Origin: Elusimicrobiota bacterium
GTDB taxonomy: Bacteria > Elusimicrobiota > Elusimicrobia > UBA1565 > UBA9628
Reading direction: 5' to 3'
DNA length: 64,000 nucleotides
NCBI GenBank assembly: GCA_016182905.1
Contig: JACPFR010000004.1
Location: 124,001-188,000 of the forward strand
In this document: piece by piece, positions 2,376 through 49,667 of the stretch
Layout: every line of letters starts with the position of its first letter
Position numbering within the stretch: the stretch's first letter is position 1
Position numbers and translations under genes: made by a program
The notes under the pieces: model-generated
What the model was told of the DNA's origin: nothing
Databases searched by the model: none
The model's input: only the letters and a program-made list of their open reading frames with translations

Positions 2376-2392
2376 CGTCTTCGATCGAAGAT

Positions 2393-2541
2393 TCTGTCTG
2401 GGCCATTAGGGTCTCCCCGCTTCCAGAGCGAAAGACCCTCGTTGAATTACTCATCTTCCAGTATCCTTAGGCTATCAACTCTGTAGCTCGGGGAATCGGC
2501 CCCGGGGTATCCACGATCCGGCCTCAACCGGATGAGTCCAG
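2393..2541 (+). promoter_or_regulatory. Structured 5' leader element, copy 1 (candidate cis-regulatory RNA)
   Basis: This 149-nt stretch matches 5563-5711 without gaps and with 10 mismatches (about 93% identity, counted by eye), although the flanking genes are unrelated. Conserved helices: AGGGTCT 2408-2414 with AGACCCT 2433-2439, enclosing CGCT/AGCG (U-A here, U-G in copy 2); CGGGG 2489-2493 with CCCCG 2500-2504; ATCCGG 2516-2521 with CCGGAT 2528-2533. The 3' half (2474-2541) is nearly invariant. A terminator-like hairpin follows directly, then the ATG at 2591. It matches no riboswitch class I know. A TATCCT hexamer (2462-2467, present in both copies) means a promoter plus leader is also possible. 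Confidence 0.6.
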
Positions 2542-2542
2542 G

Positions 2543-2576
2543 GGAAGCGAGCAATGCTCGCTTCCTCATTTTTATT
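2543..2576 (+). terminator. Terminator-like hairpin at the end of leader copy 1 (possible attenuator)
   Basis: A perfect 10-bp stem (GGAAGCGAGC 2543-2552 with GCTCGCTTCC 2556-2565, 3-nt loop) is followed by TCATTTTTATT. It sits between the conserved leader and the start codon at 2591, where a riboswitch expression platform would be. A Shine-Dalgarno (AAAGGA, near 2580-2585) follows the U-rich run. Confidence 0.6.
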
Positions 2577-2590
2577 GCCAAAGGAATCAA

Positions 2591-3850
2591 ATGAAACGCC
2601 ACTTAGCGATTCTTAGCGCCAGTCTCACTCTCCTCGCAGGTCAAAGCTTCGCGCGTGAACCGCAGGCCCCCCCCTCTCCAATCGCAGAGGGAGCCTCCTC
2701 GCAAACTGGGACCATCCAGACCAGGCCCAATTCCAGCGGCTACGGGGCCGTGACATTGTATGTCGGGAAATACGGCGAGACCATAGAACTCCCCTATTAC
2801 TGGTCCACCATGGTCGAGGTGAAGGGTGAGACGGAGGTCGTGTACTTCCATCGCAATTTTTCCGACGACAAGGGCCTCGCTCCATTCAAACCGAAGCCGT
2901 CGAATTACAAGCTAGATGATTTCGCCCGACTGGAGCTCATGGAACTCATGGTCATTCCCAAAAGGGCTCCCGGCGGCCTCCGTAGCCTAGCGGAGTTGCG
3001 CGCCGCCAAAGACAAAGAGAGCGCGAAAGCCGGCGCCGAGTACCGAATGGTCGATGAAACCAATGAGTACGCATGGCCTCGCGGGACATTCCATGCCAGA
3101 ACCACACGACCTTACCGCGCCGTCCAAACCTACACCGAGTCGCAGCATGAATTCTTTATTCTCACGACCGGCGGCATTCTGAACGAGGGAGATTTCGGTC
3201 TCAGCGCAAAGCGCGCGGAGGATTACAACTACACGCTCGATCGCGCGCTGGAATCGCTTCGAAAACACGTCATTTCCGGTTCACACCCGTCCCAGGAGGA
3301 TTCCTCGTCCGGGAATTTGTTCATTCCCGCCGGCGAGTTGTCCCCGCACTTTTTTTCGAGCTTCAAGGCTTTCCGTTTCGTCATGCTCTTCGGGATTCTC
3401 GGAGGGGCGCTGACGGGCCTCGCCTTTTGGCCGGGGACGAGCGTTCGTGCCCGCCGGACGAGGTACTTCGGCAGAAGCCTGTTCGTCTTCGCGCATCTCG
3501 CCGCGTTGGCCGGATTCATATCCGTCTACCTCCCCATCGCCATCACCGGCGTAAAATGGCGGGTTTCGAACGACGCCACTCTTCTTCCCGTGATGCTTGT
3601 TCCACTGATCAGCGCTTTCGCGGCCCGCCGCCTCGGGAGTGCCCGCGCTGGGCGAGTCCTGGTCGCGACGGGCGCAATCGCTGTGCTTTGGGCTCTCCTG
3701 ACGATCCTGACCCGGGGTCCCGGCGACCGACTGCCCGCCGAATTCGGTGTCTTCGGCAACACCGTGATCCTCTACTTCCTTGGACTGGCGTTCGGAACCG
3801 CATTCGCCCTGTTCATCGACCATTCACTTGACACCGGGGAATCCCGATGA
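2591..3850 (+). CDS. Membrane protein with signal peptide, exported domain and about four C-terminal TM helices
   Basis: 419 residues. A signal peptide (MKRHLAILSASLTLLAGQSFA) precedes an exported domain (about 25-245) with an aromatic-rich core. From about residue 255 there are roughly four or five hydrophobic segments (around FVMLFGILGGALTGLAF, LFVFAHLAALAGFISVYLPI, TLLPVMLVPLISAFAA and VILYFLGLAFGTAFALFI). The exported domain would face the periplasm. It is the first gene of a three-gene operon under leader copy 1, and its stop overlaps the next start (ATGA at 3847-3850). No family is recognised. The block 2.6-8.2 kb uses more A/T-ending codons and lower GC than its neighbours. Confidence 0.65.
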   Translation: MKRHLAILSASLTLLAGQSFAREPQAPPSPIAEGASSQTGTIQTRPNSSGYGAVTLYVGKYGETIELPYYWSTMVEVKGETEVVYFHRNFSDDKGLAPFKPKPSNYKLDDFARLELMELMVIPKRAPGGLRSLAELRAAKDKESAKAGAEYRMVDETNEYAWPRGTFHARTTRPYRAVQTYTESQHEFFILTTGGILNEGDFGLSAKRAEDYNYTLDRALESLRKHVISGSHPSQEDSSSGNLFIPAGELSPHFFSSFKAFRFVMLFGILGGALTGLAFWPGTSVRARRTRYFGRSLFVFAHLAALAGFISVYLPIAITGVKWRVSNDATLLPVMLVPLISAFAARRLGSARAGRVLVATGAIAVLWALLTILTRGPGDRLPAEFGVFGNTVILYFLGLAFGTAFALFIDHSLDTGESR

Positions 3851-5013
3851 AGCCCCTGGTCATCGCGGTCCTGCTGGCGTTCGTGGTCTCCGGGGCTCAT
3901 GCGCAGATGATCAGACCGGACCATCAGGACTTGGCCGGGAGAGTCGCCGATCCGGAACTGCGAGCCATGACCGAGCAGGTGCTGCAGCGGAAGAACCATT
4001 ATTACGTACAAGAGGCGCTCCGGAATCTGGACAAGAAGGGCGAGAACTTCACTTTAATGCGGGTGGAGGTCACCGGCGTCATGTCAAATGACGACACCGG
4101 CGCATACGACAAGAACCTATTCGAGACCCAAATCAAGCCGTCATTCTCCGCCCTCGAAAACATGACGGCCCTGGAAAGGGCCCGCTATAAGTTCCAACGT
4201 CTCATCGACCCAGCTCATACCGGCGAGCTGGTGGGCGATGCCGTCGAATACGCGAACGCGGCGAGGGGCGTGACGACCGAGAATGCACGAAAGAAGCTGG
4301 CGGCTTACCAGGACGCGGAAATCAACGAGCTCGTCGCTCACAGCTGGGGCTGCGAGCTGGTCTATGCCGCGATCTTGAACGGAGACATCCGTCCGCCGAA
4401 GAAGCTGATCGTCGTGGGAGTTCCCGACAACGATCGGAAGAAATGGGCACTCCTCGCGGAGTGGACGGGGACGGAAGTCCACTGGACACGCGCGGAGAAC
4501 GACGCCGTCAGAAACGCGCAGGACCGCGCGGCGCAAATCGGCTTGGACGCGGGTGCCTCGGTCGATTTCAAAGCGAAGTGGGACGCGGTCTGCGCTTCGG
4601 GGACGCCTAATACACGAACCTGCCATCCGCACGAGCGAAAATCCAAGCGGGTGATCATCGAGAAGATCGGCAAGATACCCGGGATGATCGGACATGCCCG
4701 TACGGAGTATTATGATGTCCTGAAGAAGAAGGACGTCCTCAAGCAATCGCACCAACAGCTCCGATCCGCAATGATCGACAGCTACGAAACGGAAACAGAG
4801 CGCGTGAAGAAAAGGGCCCTCGAAGAAGCAGTCGTCGAAGCGCGCGGACTCGTCGCCGAGGCCCGGTCGCAGGCCAACATCGCCCGGCGCGATCACGACG
4901 AACGCCTGAAAAACGCCTACGCCGACCTGGCCCGGCGGTCCTGCGATCACCCGGGAAGCGTGTCTCAGGCGGAATTGGATGCACTCCCAGATCTTACGGA
5001 ACGGACGCGATGA
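3847..5013 (+). CDS. Exported protein with a hydrolase-like nucleophile-elbow motif; unknown
   Basis: 388 residues with a clear signal peptide (MKPLVIAVLLAFVVSGAHAQ). In the middle (about 155-200), ELVAHSWGCELVYAAI followed by KKLIVVGVPD resembles the strand-Gly-X-Ser-X-Gly-helix elbow of alpha/beta hydrolases, but with AHSWG in place of GxSxG. The C-terminal third (about 285-365) is charged, helical and probably coiled coil. A lipase-like or esterase role is only a suggestion; the fold could differ. It overlaps the previous and next genes by 4 nt each (ATGA), so the three are translationally coupled. Confidence 0.6.
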   Translation: MKPLVIAVLLAFVVSGAHAQMIRPDHQDLAGRVADPELRAMTEQVLQRKNHYYVQEALRNLDKKGENFTLMRVEVTGVMSNDDTGAYDKNLFETQIKPSFSALENMTALERARYKFQRLIDPAHTGELVGDAVEYANAARGVTTENARKKLAAYQDAEINELVAHSWGCELVYAAILNGDIRPPKKLIVVGVPDNDRKKWALLAEWTGTEVHWTRAENDAVRNAQDRAAQIGLDAGASVDFKAKWDAVCASGTPNTRTCHPHERKSKRVIIEKIGKIPGMIGHARTEYYDVLKKKDVLKQSHQQLRSAMIDSYETETERVKKRALEEAVVEARGLVAEARSQANIARRDHDERLKNAYADLARRSCDHPGSVSQAELDALPDLTERTR

Positions 5014-5549
5014 ACACCATGCCGCCCGGCCTTGGGGATTGCAGCGGATTGTTGTACGGCATGCTTCTTAAGGGCGCGACCGCGGATCAAATACGCGCGT
5101 GGTCCGAGCGGGAAGACCCCGCACCCGCGAAGCCCGAATCGAACCCGGTTCGAGCCGTTCCGATCATTCCGTGGGATCCCGCGCCGATCCGAGGCACCCC
5201 CATGGGCGTGTTCCCGACTCTATTATCCGCGGCGAGGGACCTTTCCGTCACCGCCTGCGGAACTCCCGACCGCGTCTCTATCGATAGCGTCCTGACCATC
5301 CGGCTCGGCGATACCGCCTTCTCGCGGAACGACGAGCGGATCGCCGACGAATCAGCGCTCGGTCTCGGGCCCTGCGAGAGCCGCCTTTTCCGCCGATTGA
5401 TCGAAGTCATCCGCAACGGGGAAGGACCCGGGATCACCGTCCGCTGGGTGCAAGAGACCGCCGCAGCCTACCGCCCCGCCCCGGTGTATTACCCTCCTCC
5501 GTCGGGAGGACGGTGCGAGGATTACGGAAACCTCCGCTGCCCCCATTAA
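5010..5549 (+). CDS. Unknown protein, last gene of leader-1 operon
   Basis: 179 residues starting MNTMPPGLGDCSGLLYGM; no convincing signal peptide or membrane segment. It has two Cys near the C-terminus (CEDYGNLRC) and a Pro/Tyr-rich tail (YRPAPVYYPPPSGG). The start is set by the 4-nt ATGA overlap with the upstream stop. It could be a cytoplasmic or surface-associated partner of the two upstream envelope proteins. No family is recognised. Confidence 0.5.
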   Translation: MNTMPPGLGDCSGLLYGMLLKGATADQIRAWSEREDPAPAKPESNPVRAVPIIPWDPAPIRGTPMGVFPTLLSAARDLSVTACGTPDRVSIDSVLTIRLGDTAFSRNDERIADESALGLGPCESRLFRRLIEVIRNGEGPGITVRWVQETAAAYRPAPVYYPPPSGGRCEDYGNLRCPH

Positions 5550-5562
5550 AAAAGAAGGAGAC

Positions 5563-5711
5563 TCTGTCTGGGCCAATAGGGTCTCCCCGCTTACAGGGCG
5601 AAAGACCCTCGATGGATTGCTCAACTTCCAGTATCCTTAGACCATCAACTCTGTAGCTCGGGGGATCGGCCCCGGGGTATCCACGATCCGGCCTCAACCG
5701 GATGAGTCCAG
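5563..5711 (+). promoter_or_regulatory. Structured 5' leader element, copy 2
   Basis: This is the second copy of the element at 2393-2541, with a constant offset of 3170 nt and no indels. Helices AGGGTCT/AGACCCT (5578-5584, 5603-5609), CGGGG/CCCCG (5659-5663, 5670-5674) and ATCCGG/CCGGAT (5686-5691, 5698-5703) are kept. Ten substitutions cluster in the first half. Here the last bases GTCCAGA (5706-5712) can also pair with TCTGGAC (5742-5748), enclosing the downstream hairpin. It precedes the lipoprotein gene at 5763. Confidence 0.6.
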
Positions 5712-5712
5712 A

Positions 5713-5740
5713 GAAGCGGTTGAACGCCGCTTCAATTTGA
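5713..5740 (+). promoter_or_regulatory. Hairpin at the end of leader copy 2
   Basis: GAAGCGG (5713-5719) pairs with CCGCTTC (5727-5733) and is followed by AATTTGATT. It holds the same position as the stronger hairpin after copy 1, but with unrelated sequence, so a hairpin seems to be required here. The T-run is weak, so termination is less certain. Confidence 0.45.
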
Positions 5741-5762
5741 TTCTGGACCGAGGCCACAAGAG

Positions 5763-6602
5763 ATGAAGACCGCCGCCCTCGCCGCGCTGCTCACCTTCAT
5801 CGCCGGATGCGGAAAGCCCGAATCCCCGGCGCCAGTGGCGCCGCACGCCCCTGCGCTGGCGATGCCCACGCAGACTAATGAGAAGCACCCAGTCCCCGAT
5901 GAGATCAAGAAGCTCGACGCCCTAGTCGACGCCGACCAAAGGCTCGAAGACAAGAATACGCGCACCATGGTATCACCCGCGCCCGCCGGGTTCACCCCCG
6001 AACCCATCGGGCGAAAGGTTCACCTCAGGCTCGTCCTCGAGAAAACGAAGATCCGCGTCGGAGAGCCCGTTCGATATCGCCTCGAGATGACGAACGTCGG
6101 CCGGGCGCCGATCAATTACATCGAATACGACTCGAGCGTCTTTCGTTGGGGCGGATTGCTTGATTCGCTTCGAACTATCAGGTTCATGCTCACCGACGCC
6201 AAAGGGCGGAGTCATCGCCTCGAGCCCACGCTTGGGGGCAGGACGGAACCGTTAAAGCCGATGTCCGCCCCATTCACTGCCGAACAAATGGCCGAGAGCA
6301 CGGCGAGCACGACTTTCAGGGCCAGAATCGGCCCCGGGGAGACTCTCCGAAGCCTCGGCGACGGGGATTCCCCCTCGGAGCCGTTCCGGACGATGATCGT
6401 CCGAAATGAGTTCAAGACTCCGGGCCGCTATCGCATCCACGTCGAATTCGACGATCGGCCGCGGCCTCTGACGGAAACCTACATCGAGATGGCGCTTCAT
6501 TACAAAACACTCGAAGCGATCAAGAAGGACCACGCGAAATGGGTCGCCGATGCGTTGGGCCCCATTTCCACCGACCCCGTAGAGTTGGAGATTGTGCGAT
6601 GA
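5763..6602 (+). CDS. Putative lipoprotein with Ig-like/beta-sandwich domain
   Basis: 279 residues. MKTAALAALLTFIAGC is a lipobox-type signal (Cys 16), followed by a Pro/Ala linker. From about residue 80, HLRLVLEKTKIRVGEPVRYRLE.. and a later GRYRIHVEFDD give the alternating pattern of an immunoglobulin-like or proteinase-inhibitor-like beta sandwich. Function is unknown. It is the first gene under leader copy 2 and overlaps the next gene by 4 nt (ATGA at 6599-6602). Confidence 0.65.
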   Translation: MKTAALAALLTFIAGCGKPESPAPVAPHAPALAMPTQTNEKHPVPDEIKKLDALVDADQRLEDKNTRTMVSPAPAGFTPEPIGRKVHLRLVLEKTKIRVGEPVRYRLEMTNVGRAPINYIEYDSSVFRWGGLLDSLRTIRFMLTDAKGRSHRLEPTLGGRTEPLKPMSAPFTAEQMAESTASTTFRARIGPGETLRSLGDGDSPSEPFRTMIVRNEFKTPGRYRIHVEFDDRPRPLTETYIEMALHYKTLEAIKKDHAKWVADALGPISTDPVELEIVR

Positions 6603-8236
6603 GGCGCGCGTTCCTAGTCTTCATCTTGACGACGTCGCCAGTACGCGGGTTCGCCGCCCTCTGCTCGGTCGCCAACGCCGGTGTTCCCTGCGCGCCCGAC
6701 CCGGGGCCTGATACGGATGCGGCAAAGCAGAAAATCCTCGATTTGATCACCGCTGCGCAAGTCGCCGAACAAGACATCGCGCCTCTAAGGGCGGCATACA
6801 TCGCCATCCGCGGCACGACGGCTCCGAATACAGACAAGCTCGCGGCCGCCCAAGCGTACCTTGCTGCCTACACGATCCAAGAACAGACATATCAGAAAGC
6901 GATGACTTTGACCGCCGACCTATACCATGTCAAACCTCGACACGATGGCCCATTCGAAATCCAGGCGCCGTCCGAACCAGCGGACGCCTATGTCGCCAAA
7001 CTGACGGCGCGATGGAACCCCCGTGTCACTGAATCCGGTAAAGGGGTGATCCTCGCGGTGAAGATCGACGGGACGGACGGCCGGTCCCACTACAGCGGCA
7101 CGATGGCGATGGACCCGCGCAAACCCCGCGGCCGAATGGCGCTCACCACGGCGGATGGTCGCGTCCTCATCCTCAAGGAAACATTCGCGATCGCCCGGGA
7201 GCGCGACAATCCCGGCTATCTCGCGCGTGTCCTATATCACGAATCCCAGCATTTCGACCGGCTTTCCTGGAAGGATAAAAAAGGGAAACGGCACGGCTGG
7301 CAGCATATCGACAAGGAAGAAATGGCCGCGTATAAATTCGACTTGGATCACATCAGTGCGTTCGGACTCAAGCAGAAGGATGTCGACGAGATTCGACAGA
7401 ATTACATGGACTATGGCGCAGCCGTGCTCAGCGGCGTCCCTCTGGACGACAATACCCTCACCCCCGCGCAAGAAGCCGTCTGGAAGAACCACTATGAGAA
7501 CATCCAGGTCAATATCGAGAAGGAATTCTCGCGACTGGCGGAGAAAGTGGCAGCCGAACGCGCCCGGCAAGAAGCGCTGCAGAAACGGATCGAGGAAGAG
7601 AGGTTGGCCCGCGAACGCCAGGAGGCGGAGCGCAAGGCTCGGGAGGATGCTGAGAGTGAGCGCCAGGCGAAGCAGCGTGCGGAACTCTATGCGCTTCAGG
7701 AAACAGAGAACGAAGTCGCGCGTTGTTGGTATCGGCTCAACTACATTAGCCGCACCGATAGAAGGATAATCGGCTTCAAGGATGAGGACTATTCACATTA
7801 TTTCACGCCGGGCCCCCTTGATTTGCCAGGTCTAAAAACAGTTCTTTTGGTCACGCGGGCGTGCGATCTGGTTCGCGCCGGGATCCCCCCTGAAAAGATC
7901 AAGGCTTGCAATGATTCCGCCGCAAGTCTTCAAAATCCGATGAGCTATCCCCTTCGAGCCAGAATCGACCATGCGAATGAGTTAAGCAATCGAGAATGCG
8001 TCGACTACATCCTGTCTAATTCATCGAATATCTCGGATTCGGGGTCGTTCGACAAAGTGGTCAGGGCATATCAGAAGACCATCATGAAGAAAAATTCGGA
8101 CGCCGCAAAACGGGCCCGGGAAGAATCGGCTCGCGAGGAACGCGAGCGGAAGCGTGCGGGGCGTGGAGAAGGGACTCATCAGCCGCAAGACCCCGGCTGC
8201 TCCGTGGAAAACGGCGTCAATGGCTGTCCAAGATGA
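6599..8236 (+). CDS. Exported putative zinc metalloprotease with coiled coil
   Basis: 546 residues from the ATG at 6599, chosen because it overlaps the upstream stop (ATGA) and starts a signal peptide (MRRAFLVFILTTSPVRGFAA); an in-frame ATG at 6539 would lie inside the previous gene. The HExxH motif HESQH is at about residues 214-218, with a Glu-containing helix (KEEMAAYKFD) about 20 residues on, the spacing expected of a gluzincin third ligand. A long charged coiled coil follows (about 305-365), then a C-terminal domain with several Cys. Protease activity is inferred from the motif only. GC is low: hand counts of two 60-nt lines gave 50% and 57%. Confidence 0.65.
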   Translation: MRRAFLVFILTTSPVRGFAALCSVANAGVPCAPDPGPDTDAAKQKILDLITAAQVAEQDIAPLRAAYIAIRGTTAPNTDKLAAAQAYLAAYTIQEQTYQKAMTLTADLYHVKPRHDGPFEIQAPSEPADAYVAKLTARWNPRVTESGKGVILAVKIDGTDGRSHYSGTMAMDPRKPRGRMALTTADGRVLILKETFAIARERDNPGYLARVLYHESQHFDRLSWKDKKGKRHGWQHIDKEEMAAYKFDLDHISAFGLKQKDVDEIRQNYMDYGAAVLSGVPLDDNTLTPAQEAVWKNHYENIQVNIEKEFSRLAEKVAAERARQEALQKRIEEERLARERQEAERKAREDAESERQAKQRAELYALQETENEVARCWYRLNYISRTDRRIIGFKDEDYSHYFTPGPLDLPGLKTVLLVTRACDLVRAGIPPEKIKACNDSAASLQNPMSYPLRARIDHANELSNRECVDYILSNSSNISDSGSFDKVVRAYQKTIMKKNSDAAKRAREESAREERERKRAGRGEGTHQPQDPGCSVENGVNGCPR

Positions 8237-26116: not shown

Positions 26117-27526
26117 GTGGAACAACGAACCGCCTCCCCCTCGATCGGCGAGATCCTGACGGTCAAGGTGGACCGCATGGCCCCCGCCGGCGACGGCCTC
26201 GCGAAGGCAGAGGGCTCCAACCGCGTCGTGTTCGTGCCCGGCGCCGCCCCGGGCGACCGCCTCGAGGTCGAGGTGTTCGACGCGAAGTCCAACTTCGCCC
26301 GCGCCCGCGTCAAGAAGGTCCTGTCCTCGGGCCCCGAGCGCATCGATCCCCCGTGCCAGCACCACGCCGCCCCCTCGCGCCCCGGCCCGTCCTGCGGCGG
26401 CTGCGACTGGCAGCACCTCGCCTACGAGAGCCAGCTCAAGCACAAGCGGGAGATCGTCGCGGACTGCGTCTCCCGCATCGGGAAGTTCCCCGAGGCCGAC
26501 AAGCTCGTCCTCCCGACCTTGCGCGCGCCCAAGCCCTTCGGCTACCGCAACAAGGTCCAGATCCCTTTCATGCCCGGCCCGAGCGGCCCGCGCATGGGCT
26601 TCTTCTCCGCGGGCTCCCGCGAGATCGTGGACATGAAGGAATGCCCGATCCAGCCGGAACTGTCGGCCCGCATCGCCTTCACGGTCAAGGCCATGGCCAT
26701 CGCCCGCGGCTGGACCTACTTCGACGGCAAGACCGGCCGCGGCTGGCTGCGCCACCTCTACATCCGCACCAACGCCGAGGGCCAGGCCCTCGTCGGCCTC
26801 GTCACCACGCATCAGGAGTTCCCCGACCGGGAGGTGTTCGCCGCCGAGCTGCGCGCCAACCACCCCGAGATCGTCGGCATCCACCAGAACATCAACCCCG
26901 AGCGCACCTCCGTCGTCCTCGGCCCCGTGTGGCGCCGTCTCTGGGGCCAGCGCGAGCTCGAGGAGACCTTGGGGCGCTTCCACTTCTCGGCCTCCCCGGG
27001 CGCCTTCCTCCAGGTCAACACGCCGGCCGCCGAGGTCCTCTACGACGCGGCCAAAGACGCCGCCAAGGAAGGCGGCAAGAAGTTCCCCGTCGGCCTCGAC
27101 CTGTACTGCGGCGTCGGCACCCTCACGCTGTGGCTGGCCGACGCCTTCCCCAAGGTCCTCGGCGTCGAGGAGAACAAGGACGCGATCAACGACGCCTACC
27201 GCAACGCCGAGCGCAACCGCGTGCGCAACGCCCGCTTCAAGGCCGGCCGCGCCGAGTCCGTGCTGCCGAAGCTCGCCAACGAGCTTCCCGACAACACCTG
27301 CGTCGTCGTCGACCCTCCCCGCGTCGGGCTCTCCCAGCCCGTACGCCGCTTCCTGACCGATAAGAAGATCAAGCGCCTCGTCTACGTCTCCTGCGACCCC
27401 GCGACCTTCGCCCGCGACGCCGGCTTCCTGTCCCACTCCGGCTACGTCCTGCGCCGGGTGCAGCCCGTCGACCTTTTCCCGCAGACCAGCCATGTCGAGC
27501 TCGTGGCGCTGATGGACCGAAAGTAG
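26117..27526 (+). CDS. rlmD: 23S rRNA (uracil-C5) methyltransferase, RlmD/RumA family
   Basis: 469 residues from the GTG at 26117. An N-terminal TRAM domain (IGEILTVKV.. PGDRLEVEVF) is followed by the Fe-S ligands (Cys in DPPC, CGGC and ECPIQ), the SAM-binding GLDLYCGVGTLTLWLA and the nucleophile YVSCDPATFARD. It methylates a uridine of 23S rRNA, or possibly tRNA since RlmCD/TrmA relatives are close. TATCAT lies 6 nt before the GTG. There is no ATG nearby, and an upstream in-frame extension would run into the gabT coding region. Confidence 0.88.
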   Translation: MEQRTASPSIGEILTVKVDRMAPAGDGLAKAEGSNRVVFVPGAAPGDRLEVEVFDAKSNFARARVKKVLSSGPERIDPPCQHHAAPSRPGPSCGGCDWQHLAYESQLKHKREIVADCVSRIGKFPEADKLVLPTLRAPKPFGYRNKVQIPFMPGPSGPRMGFFSAGSREIVDMKECPIQPELSARIAFTVKAMAIARGWTYFDGKTGRGWLRHLYIRTNAEGQALVGLVTTHQEFPDREVFAAELRANHPEIVGIHQNINPERTSVVLGPVWRRLWGQRELEETLGRFHFSASPGAFLQVNTPAAEVLYDAAKDAAKEGGKKFPVGLDLYCGVGTLTLWLADAFPKVLGVEENKDAINDAYRNAERNRVRNARFKAGRAESVLPKLANELPDNTCVVVDPPRVGLSQPVRRFLTDKKIKRLVYVSCDPATFARDAGFLSHSGYVLRRVQPVDLFPQTSHVELVALMDRK

Positions 27527-27528
27527 GC

Positions 27529-27562
27529 CTTTAGACCCAGACGTTTCGGGGGCCAAAAGGCC
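27529..27562. repeat. Short intergenic repeat (copy B)
   Basis: CTTTAGACCCAGACGTTTCG followed by GGGGCCAAAAGGCC. It aligns with copy A at 18848. It starts 3 nt after the rlmD stop and ends exactly where the -35 of the next gene begins. Confidence 0.5.
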
Positions 27563-27591
27563 TTGCGTTTTGGCGGTTTTGGGCTTATATT
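27563..27591 (+). promoter_or_regulatory. Promoter of the 874-residue secreted protein
   Basis: TTGCGT (27563-27568), 17-nt spacer, TATATT (27586-27591). This unit has a leader of about 33 nt and a Shine-Dalgarno (GAGGA, 9 nt before the ATG at 27631), unlike most first genes here. Confidence 0.55.
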
Positions 27592-27630: not shown

Positions 27631-30255
27631 ATGAAAACCCCTCGCGCCCTCCTCGCCGCTCTGCTCGCCCTGACCGCGTCCGCCGCGCGCGCCGGCGATC
27701 CGACCATCATCTTCCCCCAGAACAACAGGGGCGTCACCGACTTCTCGCGGCTCCAGAACGCCGCCGATTGGAAGATCCTGCACATCGAGCGGAACCCGTC
27801 GGACGTCTCCCTCATCCGCCTGGCGCCCCGGGGCGCGACCAAGGGCGACCCGATCACCGTGGTCAATCCCTACGACGAGTATTTCATCGTCCCGGCCGGC
27901 AGCGTCCTGTTCGGCGGGATGGCGACGGTCCTCAGCGTGTCCAAGGACCCGTACCCCGGCGCGATGCGCGGCGAGCCGGTCCGCCTCCTCGGGCCCGGAG
28001 GCCAGCCCACCGGCCCCCAGCTCTGGATGCCGAGCCGCAACAGCGCCGACATCACCGACCAGCTGAGGTACTGGCCGACGCTGCCCGCCGACAACACCCG
28101 GGTGGACCGCTCGCGCGTGATCGTCCTCCCCCGCGAGCGCTCCCTCGCGGACAACGGCCTTCAGTCCGGCGGCCTGCCCAACTGGTTCACCTTGCCCGGC
28201 CAGAAGCCCCGCGACGTCCTGAGCCCCCTGCTCGGCGGTCAGGACCTGAGCTCGACCTTGCTCGGCTTCCCCGGCGGCACTCCGCCCACCTATTACACCG
28301 CCCTCACCAACTACCGCTACGACGAGAGGAACAAGAAGCTGATCGGCCCCGACGGCGCGGCGAAGACCGTGACGGTGATGGCGATGCCCGCCGGCACCTT
28401 CTACCTGGCTCCCCCGGCGATCCCCCACGACATCCGCATCCCCGGCGTCACCTTGGTCAACTCGAGCGGCGCGAAGGTGGACCCGAAGAAGGGCGCGCAG
28501 CCGCCGAAGTCCGACGGGATCAAGCGCGAGTTCAAGAAGACGGCCTGGGCCGGGAACTGGAAGGACAAGGTCACGCACATCCACCGCTGGCACGCCGTCG
28601 AGACCACCCAGGCGCCGATCCCGATGGCGCCCACGCCGATGATGACGTTCTATTGCTATCACGAGGCGGAGGACGGGCATAAGAACATCTCCGGCCACCT
28701 CAAGAGCAACTACGACGTCGTCGAGTGCGTCGACTGGATCGTCCCCGCCGACGACAAGGTGGAGAAGGCGGACGGCAAGGAGTACCGCGTCCGCAACAAC
28801 CGCGTCGTCATCGACGTCGTCTACAAGGACCACGCGCTGCGCCGCGTCGACGCGGGCGGCGCCAACCTCGTCCTCAAGGACAAGCCCCTCTCCCACGCCG
28901 CCATCGGAGGCCAGGATTGGGTCAAGGTGACCGCCGCCAAGGCCCCCGACGCGCCCGCCGCCGCCTCGCTCGCCCTGATCGCGGAGACGGAGACGCGCTG
29001 GCTCACCAAGGTCCAGGCCGCGGCCTACGCCGCCGCGCGCAAGGACGCCAAGGACGACGCCGCGCGCAAGGCCCTCGACGACAAGTACCGGGCCCTCCTC
29101 GAGGCCCAGATCCGCCCCGAGGCGCTGGCCGGGTACAAGGCCGCCCGCGCCTTGCCCGCCGCCCAGGCCGAGGCCAAGATCAAGGACGCCATCGGCAAGA
29201 CCGAGATGTGGGGCGGCAAGGACGCCAAGGACGTCAAGGCCGTCATCGCTCCCTTCCAGGAGACCGCCAGCCCGGACACGGCCAAGATGCTGGAGATCCA
29301 GCTCTCGAAGGCGGACTGGGACCTGCTCACGAAGAAGGGCGACGATCTGCTGAGGTACAACCAGGCCAGGCACGGGGCGGACGGCGTGGCCACGCAAGGC
29401 ACGGGCTTCGCCCCGGCCAACGTCGATCCCGTGGCCCTGCGCCTCGCCGTGACGGCCGCGCGCGCGGCCGTCGGCTCCGCCGAGGGCAAGCCTCCGGTCG
29501 CGACCACCCCCGAGAAGCCCCCCCGATCCATCCTGACGCCGGAGGAGATCGCGCTCCTGACGCCCAAGGAGAAGGAGATGTACGACGGCTACCTCAAGCG
29601 CGCGACGAAGGACGGCAAGCTCGATCCGACGGAAAACAACCTGCTGACGAACGCGGAGCTCCTGCGCAACCGGATGAACAACGAGGTGCCTCCGCGCTCT
29701 AAGGTCCCGGCGGCCCCCGCGTCGGACGACATGACGGCGGAGCAGTTCGCGAAGCTGCCGCTGTTCCAGCAACGGCAGTTCTGCAAGGATTACCCGCCGG
29801 ATCCCGCGACAATCCAGGGCGACACGAGAGCTCCGGTGATCGATACCGACAACCCCGACGCGCTGAAGGGCGCCCAGAATTCGGTGCCGGACGCGGTGCC
29901 GCAGACGAAGCCGGCGGAGTCGAATACGCAGACGCGGGACACGAAGTGGCCGCGGAAGGCCCGCCAGGACGCCTGCAAAAATCTTCCCGATGAGATTCCC
30001 GGCCGGATCGACGGCACGGCGGGCACCGGCGGAAAGCCCGCCGTCGGCGCCAACGTCCCGGTGCCTACAGGCTCGGACGTGGAGAACAAGGAGAAGGAGA
30101 AGAGCAAGTGGCTCACCTCGGACCTGCTCACCAGCGCCGCGAAGGGCGCGATGGTCGGGCTCCTCGTCGGGTCCCTGTTCGGGCCGGCGGGCCTCGTCTT
30201 AGGGCCGCTGCTCGGCGGCGCCCTGTTCTACGGCCTGACCAAGATCACGAGCTGA
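27631..30255 (+). CDS. Large secreted protein with C-terminal glycine zipper; unknown
   Basis: 874 residues. A signal peptide (MKTPRALLAALLALTASAARA) is followed by a beta-rich N-terminal domain (about 22-290), an Ala/Lys/Asp-rich helical middle (about 430-560) and Pro-rich linkers. The last 50 residues (SAAKGAMVGLLVGSLFGPAG..) form a glycine-zipper hydrophobic tail. The tail is 57% identical over 49 positions (28 matches, by eye) to that of the next gene. It may insert in or bridge to the outer membrane. No family is recognised. Confidence 0.7.
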   Translation: MKTPRALLAALLALTASAARAGDPTIIFPQNNRGVTDFSRLQNAADWKILHIERNPSDVSLIRLAPRGATKGDPITVVNPYDEYFIVPAGSVLFGGMATVLSVSKDPYPGAMRGEPVRLLGPGGQPTGPQLWMPSRNSADITDQLRYWPTLPADNTRVDRSRVIVLPRERSLADNGLQSGGLPNWFTLPGQKPRDVLSPLLGGQDLSSTLLGFPGGTPPTYYTALTNYRYDERNKKLIGPDGAAKTVTVMAMPAGTFYLAPPAIPHDIRIPGVTLVNSSGAKVDPKKGAQPPKSDGIKREFKKTAWAGNWKDKVTHIHRWHAVETTQAPIPMAPTPMMTFYCYHEAEDGHKNISGHLKSNYDVVECVDWIVPADDKVEKADGKEYRVRNNRVVIDVVYKDHALRRVDAGGANLVLKDKPLSHAAIGGQDWVKVTAAKAPDAPAAASLALIAETETRWLTKVQAAAYAAARKDAKDDAARKALDDKYRALLEAQIRPEALAGYKAARALPAAQAEAKIKDAIGKTEMWGGKDAKDVKAVIAPFQETASPDTAKMLEIQLSKADWDLLTKKGDDLLRYNQARHGADGVATQGTGFAPANVDPVALRLAVTAARAAVGSAEGKPPVATTPEKPPRSILTPEEIALLTPKEKEMYDGYLKRATKDGKLDPTENNLLTNAELLRNRMNNEVPPRSKVPAAPASDDMTAEQFAKLPLFQQRQFCKDYPPDPATIQGDTRAPVIDTDNPDALKGAQNSVPDAVPQTKPAESNTQTRDTKWPRKARQDACKNLPDEIPGRIDGTAGTGGKPAVGANVPVPTGSDVENKEKEKSKWLTSDLLTSAAKGAMVGLLVGSLFGPAGLVLGPLLGGALFYGLTKITS

Positions 30256-49438: not shown

Positions 49439-49483
49439 GCCCTCACGATAGCTCCCGAGGGCGTTATGAATCCATTATAACGA

Positions 49484-49563
49484 TGGTGCCAGGCCTCCCA
49501 TTATCCCATTACTCCCGGGATTCCCTCCGGCGGAGTAATGGGATAATGGGAGGCCTGGCACCA
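49484..49563. repeat. Perfect 32-bp inverted repeat (REP/BIME-like hairpin)
   Basis: Left arm 49484-49515 (TGGTGCCAGGCCTCCCATTA..) and right arm 49532-49563 are exact reverse complements, separated by 16 nt. The arms start TGGTGCCAGGC and end GCCTGGCACCA. It lies between the KimA-like gene and tRNA-Leu. No transposase is nearby. It is likely a REP-type or MITE-type element that folds into a long hairpin. Confidence 0.8.
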
Positions 49564-49584
49564 ATTTGATAAGATGGGCTTGTA

Positions 49585-49667
49585 GGCGGCGTGGCGGAAT
49601 GGCAGACGCAATCGACTCAAAATCGATCGGGTTCACGCCCTTGTGGGTTCGAGTCCCACCGCCGCTA
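49585..49667 (+). tRNA. tRNA-Leu (CAA anticodon)
   Basis: Acceptor GGCGGCG (49585-49591) pairs with CGCCGCT (49660-49666), discriminator A at 49667, CCA not encoded. Anticodon stem ATCGA/TCGAT around CTCAAAA gives CAA. A variable arm (GGGTTCACGCCC) and T-arm GGGTTCGAGTCCC are present. It ends 11 nt before the next ATG. Confidence 0.92.

Follow-up and report, generated by a model that had tools for sequence, protein, structure and literature searches.

The stretch analyzed here (the window) comprises 64,000 nucleotides of contig JACPFR010000004.1 from an Elusimicrobiota bacterium (GCA_016182905.1, positions 124,001 to 188,000, forward strand). It contains a direct repeat of 153 nt (2389-2541 and 5559-5711), both copies of which lie on the + strand and end approximately 50 nt 5' of the start codons at 2591 and 5763. 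The copies are gapless and 93% identical, their identity breaks off sharply at both ends, and the flanking sequences are unrelated; features of copy 2 are found at the copy 1 positions plus 3170. An initial annotation, made from the letters alone, had described them as a 149-nt structured leader, gapless and about 93% identical amid differing surroundings and followed each time by a start codon; all of this except the nature of the 5' half was confirmed, at a slightly greater length. We consider it highly probable, on the basis of the features listed below, that each copy is a two-stage control cassette composed of an activator promoter and an ON riboswitch of the 2'-dG-II class, where 2'-dG stands for 2'-deoxyguanosine. 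The aptamer class, the operator, the spacing and the overlap between helix P1 and the terminator can be read from the sequence.

2389..2541, + strand: repeat copy 1, containing operator, promoter and most of the aptamer
2399..2414, unstranded: distal operator of copy 1, TGGGCCATTAGGGTCT, 3' half-site degenerate, assigned by a position weight matrix (PWM) from 148 loci, 25 bp 5' of the proximal operator
2424..2439, unstranded: proximal operator of copy 1, CAGAGCGAAAGACCCT, predicted to be centred near -42
2462..2467, + strand: -10 box TATCCT of copy 1, first base 30 nt after the proximal centre, predicted transcription start site (TSS) ~2474
2476..2546, + strand: 2'-dG-II riboswitch aptamer of copy 1 (RF03165), P1 2479-2483/2539-2543
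2541..2576, + strand: intrinsic terminator of copy 1, stem GGGGAAGCGAGC/GCTCGCTTCCTC then ATTTTTATT, 3 nt (2541-2543) in common with the P1 3' strand
5559..5711, + strand: repeat copy 2
5569..5584, unstranded: distal operator of copy 2, TGGGCCAATAGGGTCT
5594..5609, unstranded: proximal operator of copy 2, CAGGGCGAAAGACCCT, core GGGCGAAAGACC matching the consensus core exactly
5632..5637, + strand: -10 box TATCCT of copy 2, predicted TSS ~5644
5646..5716, + strand: 2'-dG-II riboswitch aptamer of copy 2 (RF03165), P1 5649-5653/5709-5713
5713..5742, + strand: hairpin GAAGCGG/CCGCTTC of copy 2 with a weak U tract

A covariance search with Rfam 15 matched both copies to the 2'-dG-II purine riboswitch aptamer (RF03165) over the full model (1-71 of 71), with scores of 77.8 bits for copy 1 and 81 bits for copy 2 (gathering score: 60 bits). 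The earlier statement that the element matches no familiar class was wrong because its 3' half is a full-length RF03165 aptamer, and a novel RNA class was ruled out by these matches. Covariation, which the initial annotation had proposed to look for, was strong across relatives and supported a three-way junction of P1, P2 and P3. Among 68 distinct aptamers, 99.5% of the cells were paired across the three helices and the kissing-loop pairs, 14 of 20 pairs showed changes on both sides, and the covariation score was 0.54 versus 0.21 for shuffled and ≤0.19 for slid alignments. The proposed A-to-G change that keeps a U-G pair was located in P1 (copy 1, CUCUG/CAGGG; copy 2, CUCUG/CAGAG). The GG/CC kissing-loop pairs and the CCAC core of the junction were conserved among the aptamers.

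The position equivalent to purine 51 in J2/3 was C in 130 of 132 aptamers, including both window copies (specificity criterion from PMC8872408, position mapping our own), and the junction-proximal P1 pair G8-C64 was present in all 132. Guanine riboswitches carry U at the position where 2'-dG-II has C (PMC8872408). The window aptamers share with the RF03165 class the full-length covariance match, the three-way junction, the L2-L3 GG/CC kissing, the C at the specificity position and the G-C junction-proximal P1 pair, and 2'-deoxyguanosine is their presumed ligand. Guanosine or another guanine nucleoside as the natural ligand appears unlikely, since the class is reported to favour 2'-dG and the specificity-type C is retained; such a ligand would fit the binding of riboguanosine by 2'-dG-II aptamers (PMC8872408) and associated genes that are unlike those of purine metabolism. 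Two aptamers, at loci L113 and L127, have U instead of C at the J2/3 position and, judged by this base, may prefer guanine.

The 5' half of the repeat gave a different picture. Its 83 nt folded no better than shuffled sequences (z = -1.0 and -0.75 in the two copies), whereas the leaders from 2470 (copy 1) and 5640 (copy 2) reached z = -4.8 and z = -2.8, respectively. Comparison of 148 distinct upstream regions revealed a 16-bp palindrome, TRGGYCYWWNGRCCYW; a PWM site above 8 bits was present in 95% of these loci versus 3% of shuffled upstream regions. The two best sites were spaced by 24 bp in 66 loci, by 25 bp in seven and by 23 bp in five, and the two palindromes of the window copies lie 25 bp apart. 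At 86 of 144 loci a TANNNT motif started exactly 30 nt after the centre of the proximal operator (approximately 3 in shuffled sequences), and no conserved -35 element was detected among these 144 aptamer-associated promoters. Given the usual distance from -10 to +1, the proximal operator is predicted to be centred near -42 and the TSS to lie just 5' of P1. Because the 5' half has no fold beyond chance and the operators stand at a fixed distance from the -10 box, the conserved block consists of a promoter with an aptamer behind it rather than of one RNA. The description as a structured leader therefore holds for the 3' 71 nt only: the 5' half is promoter DNA that, given the TSS predicted from the -10 box (~2474 and ~5644), probably lies outside the transcript of its own promoter.

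That the whole 149-nt element is a single RNA, with a structured 5' domain next to the purine aptamer as in a composite or tandem riboswitch, is very improbable. It would account for a 5' half nearly as conserved between the window copies as the 3' half and for a possible GGGUCU/AGACCC hairpin within it, but the cross-species conservation is that of palindromic DNA sites at a fixed -10 distance, and the operator sites also occur without the aptamer. A structured 5' RNA domain was rejected on the folding result. Both alternatives offered by the initial annotation, aptamer plus expression platform and promoter/leader cassette, turned out to be right: a promoter/operator cassette comes first, followed by the aptamer with its expression platform.

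Downstream of the aptamer, copy 1 has a good terminator with a 12-bp stem followed by ATTTTTATT, in line with the earlier view that the first hairpin looks like a real terminator. In copy 2 the hairpin is followed by a poor U tract (AATTTGATT), and the corresponding leader end of a related species (L053) carries a complete T7 tract. The two hairpins are not wholly unrelated in sequence, as had been stated, since GAAGCG occurs in both 5' arms. Using our own criterion, an intrinsic terminator was present in 106 of 150 loci, and in 89 of these 106 two or more nucleotides of the P1 3' strand also belong to the 5' arm of the terminator. The unconstrained fold of copy 1 formed the full 12-bp terminator and no P1, whereas forcing P1 removed basal pairs of the terminator. 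The overlap of P1 and terminator has the geometry of an ON switch, from which we infer ON polarity for the window copies. Guanine-variant riboswitches of the 2'-dG-III and xanthine types are described as ON switches (PMC9295807); they share the guanine-family scaffold, the terminator overlapping the aptamer and the ON geometry, but are different classes whose reported targets serve purine hydrolysis or salvage and are not secreted proteins (PMC9295807).

An OFF switch, or a platform acting mainly at translation, is quite unlikely. Loci with no clear terminator, the weak U tract of copy 2 and a copy 2 fold that lets the 5' P1 strand pair near the putative ribosome site would favour it; against it stand the shared bases in the 89 loci, unconstrained folds of copy 1 and of a further copy of the same genome (contig C11), in which the full terminator wins over P1, and the ON switches described for the related 2'-dG-III and xanthine variants. 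Copy 2, with its weak terminator, may act partly at translation.

The host genome carries four aptamer copies, two of them beyond the window on contigs C48 and C11. All four lie approximately 43-46 nt 5' of a start codon, and operator and aptamer occur together in three. A DNA pattern derived from the element gave matches in Elusimicrobiota metagenome-assembled genomes, and aptamer matches were present in 97 of 341 genomes of the phylum (over the Rfam cut-off in 88), some of which carry seven to nine copies. The aptamer loci were delimited by covariance-model coordinates. The RF03165 class has been assigned to Bacteroidetes (PMC8872408); in Elusimicrobiota we find it in multiple copies, linked to a common operator-promoter. 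Four copies in one genome, two of them merely 3.2 kb apart, could point to a dispersed mobile repeat, an explanation that we regard as extremely improbable and rejected: every copy precedes a gene, none of the four lies in coding or random sequence, where the initial annotation would have expected a mobile repeat, and homologous genes stand behind the element in other species. Moreover, segmental duplication is indicated by the upstream gene 1644, a paralogue of the gene that precedes the C11 copy. Viral contigs scanned with an exact consensus pattern gave no match, which, with so strict a pattern, is weak evidence against phage carriage.

The operator has a distribution of its own. Within the genus, 19 genomes had between two and 20 perfect tandem operators each, and a reversed-pattern control gave almost none. 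Among the 341 phylum genomes scanned, 172 had a perfect tandem operator, all of them of the window's own class, and the other Elusimicrobiota classes had none. Many genomes with tandem operators lack the aptamer, and a third tandem operator in the window is also without one:

27524..27564, unstranded: third tandem operator, core match 27526-27562, -10 box TATATT 27586-27591

It precedes an 874-aa open reading frame (ORF, 27631-30255) whose product is predicted to be secreted. Operator and aptamer are separable, since each is found without the other (27524-27564 and locus L002, respectively), and it seems that part of the operator regulon acquired the aptamer as an extra element. The regulon without the riboswitch is represented by a 1.4-Mb relative (G198, loci L183-L194), where 20 perfect tandem operators were found but no match to 2'-dG-II. 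A tandem operator elsewhere in the window's own genome is directly followed by a gene for a PAS-GGDEF diguanylate cyclase (L177:3119-4084, contig C19), which may connect the regulon with cyclic di-GMP.

Inverted repeats of 16 bp with 7-2-7 symmetry are typical of NarL-type regulators, and a site near -42, a tandem upstream site and the lack of a conserved -35 element are typical of class-II activation. The promoters described here have their operator near -42 at a fixed -10 distance with a weak -35, as in class-II activator promoters, and share with those of the NarL/FixJ family the 16-bp 7-2-7 repeat and the tandem sites with the proximal one near -42. They differ in the half-site, which is TRGGYCY and not the NarL heptamer, in that the regulator is inferred, and in that the promoter feeds a riboswitch. 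Three common activator families (NarL/FixJ, CRP-type and OmpR-type) were surveyed in 24 genomes. Of these, only the NarL/FixJ type (GerE domain) was represented in every one of the eight operator-rich genomes. No CRP-type or OmpR-type helix-turn-helix protein was found in G020, a genome with ten perfect tandem operators, and both types are disfavoured as the common binder. One GerE ortholog group (62-88% identical) was common to all eight, whereas the best GerE match in the operator-poor genomes fetched had ≤56% identity. In a second set of 22 genomes with two or more operators, all but one (21) had the NarL-type ortholog; where families lacked it, their genomes carried no operator or a single one. 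Proteins of this type are encoded at G000:C9:83873 and C51:62131. Phyletic co-occurrence and 7-2-7 symmetry thus make this conserved NarL-type response regulator the most likely candidate, and it is predicted to bind the palindromes. That the palindromes are instead bound by a repressor or by an activator from outside the NarL/FixJ family is somewhat unlikely: the operator is known from sequence alone and G113 has operators but no NarL-type match, yet the class-II arrangement, the 7-2-7 repeats and the absence of CRP and OmpR types from G020 speak for the NarL-type regulator.

The window copies precede the following genes:

2591..3850, + strand: operon 1 gene 1, 419 aa, signal-like N terminus and C-terminal transmembrane region, no Pfam family
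3847..5013, + strand: operon 1 gene 2, 388 aa, predicted secreted, no Pfam family
5010..5549, + strand: operon 1 gene 3, 179 aa, no Pfam family
5763..6602, + strand: operon 2 gene 1, 279 aa, lipoprotein-like N terminus, no Pfam family
6539..8236, + strand: operon 2 second ORF, 565 aa, HExxH-like motif (HESQH), metallopeptidase match sub-threshold only

A Pfam scan of these proteins gave nothing above the cut-off. Genes reported behind 2'-dG-II aptamers encode receiver domain proteins, phospholipase D, ComEC and endonuclease I and form no clear pathway (PMC8872408); those behind the window copies differ in having no Pfam family at all. 2'-dG-II aptamers also precede homologues of the first gene of operon 1, both in this genome and elsewhere, and homologues of the first gene of operon 2 in other genomes. 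Signal-like or N-terminal membrane stretches were predicted by a simple hydropathy test for 80 of 117 first genes versus 4 of 20 upstream ORFs, a small background. The families among 114 first genes scanned were radical SAM (21), ComEC-like metallo-beta-lactamase (15) and SBP_bac_5 (extracellular peptide-binding, 8), followed by tyrosine/dual-specificity phosphatase (3), YcaO (2) and CAAX protease (2). At 15 of 19 radical-SAM loci, a simple search for ORFs and ribosome sites found an ORF of 61-70 aa between aptamer and enzyme, 80-95 nt after the aptamer (L008, L010, L012, L013, L014, L016, L024, L031, L090, L093, L095, L105, L108, L109 and L116). These ORFs have a constant signal-like start (MTNKDKIIAAFLVSLGLFS...) and a variable C-terminus, similar ones precede YcaO-cluster genes (L018, L027 and L113), and by this arrangement they are candidate precursors of ribosomally synthesized and post-translationally modified peptides (RiPPs). 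The class of the riboswitch is known; its copies went unrecognised in the initial annotation, and its promoter partner and target set are unexpected. In the literature searched, which did not include the original class papers, the Elusimicrobiota distribution, the common operator-promoter and RiPP-like targets of 2'-dG-II are undescribed. Elsewhere in the window, a 41-nt inverted repeat (49475-49572, 90% complementary, arms 16 nt apart) lies just 5' of a tRNA gene (49585-49667).

In the proposed mechanism, a dimeric activator, most likely a NarL/FixJ-family response regulator, would occupy the two 7-2-7 palindromes and, from the proximal site near -42, bring RNA polymerase to a -10 promoter without a conserved -35. 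The transcript would begin within approximately 2 nt of the 2'-dG-II aptamer. Without ligand, the P1 3' strand would pair into the base of the intrinsic terminator and transcription would stop; with 2'-deoxyguanosine bound, P1 would be locked, the basal pairs of the terminator lost and the operon expressed. The ligand, the identity of the activator, the polarity (ON) and the physiological signal are deductions. Several findings weigh against this reading. G113 has nine operators and no match to the NarL-type regulator, and the pairing of regulator and operator is a family-level co-occurrence confounded by phylogeny. The L002 copy (contig C48 of the same genome) has aptamer and terminator without the upstream operator-promoter, and by our criterion no clear terminator is present at 44 of 150 loci. 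In copy 1 a 9-bp hairpin persists with P1 forced. Both window copies have a short P1 of 5 bp, which overlaps the terminator by 3 nt in copy 1 and by 1 nt in copy 2, so that switching could be weak and its effect in these copies may be modest.

As the targets are mostly secreted proteins, the cassette would induce a set of exported proteins whenever an active activator coincides with abundant deoxyguanosine, e.g. from DNA breakdown. We tentatively propose that, in the Elusimicrobiota class tested here, the riboswitch was added to part of a regulon under one conserved response regulator, and that the phosphorylated regulator and deoxyguanosine, as the two inputs of a gate, together release secreted proteins and radical-SAM/YcaO peptides during the breakdown of DNA from dead or lysed cells. 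If this is true, the 2'-dG-II class would gain a physiological role in scavenging or competition. The physiological role of the class becomes directly testable with many genome-resolved copies in one phylum, a common operator, a candidate regulator and a target list of secreted proteins, ComEC-like metallo-beta-lactamases and radical-SAM/YcaO peptide clusters.

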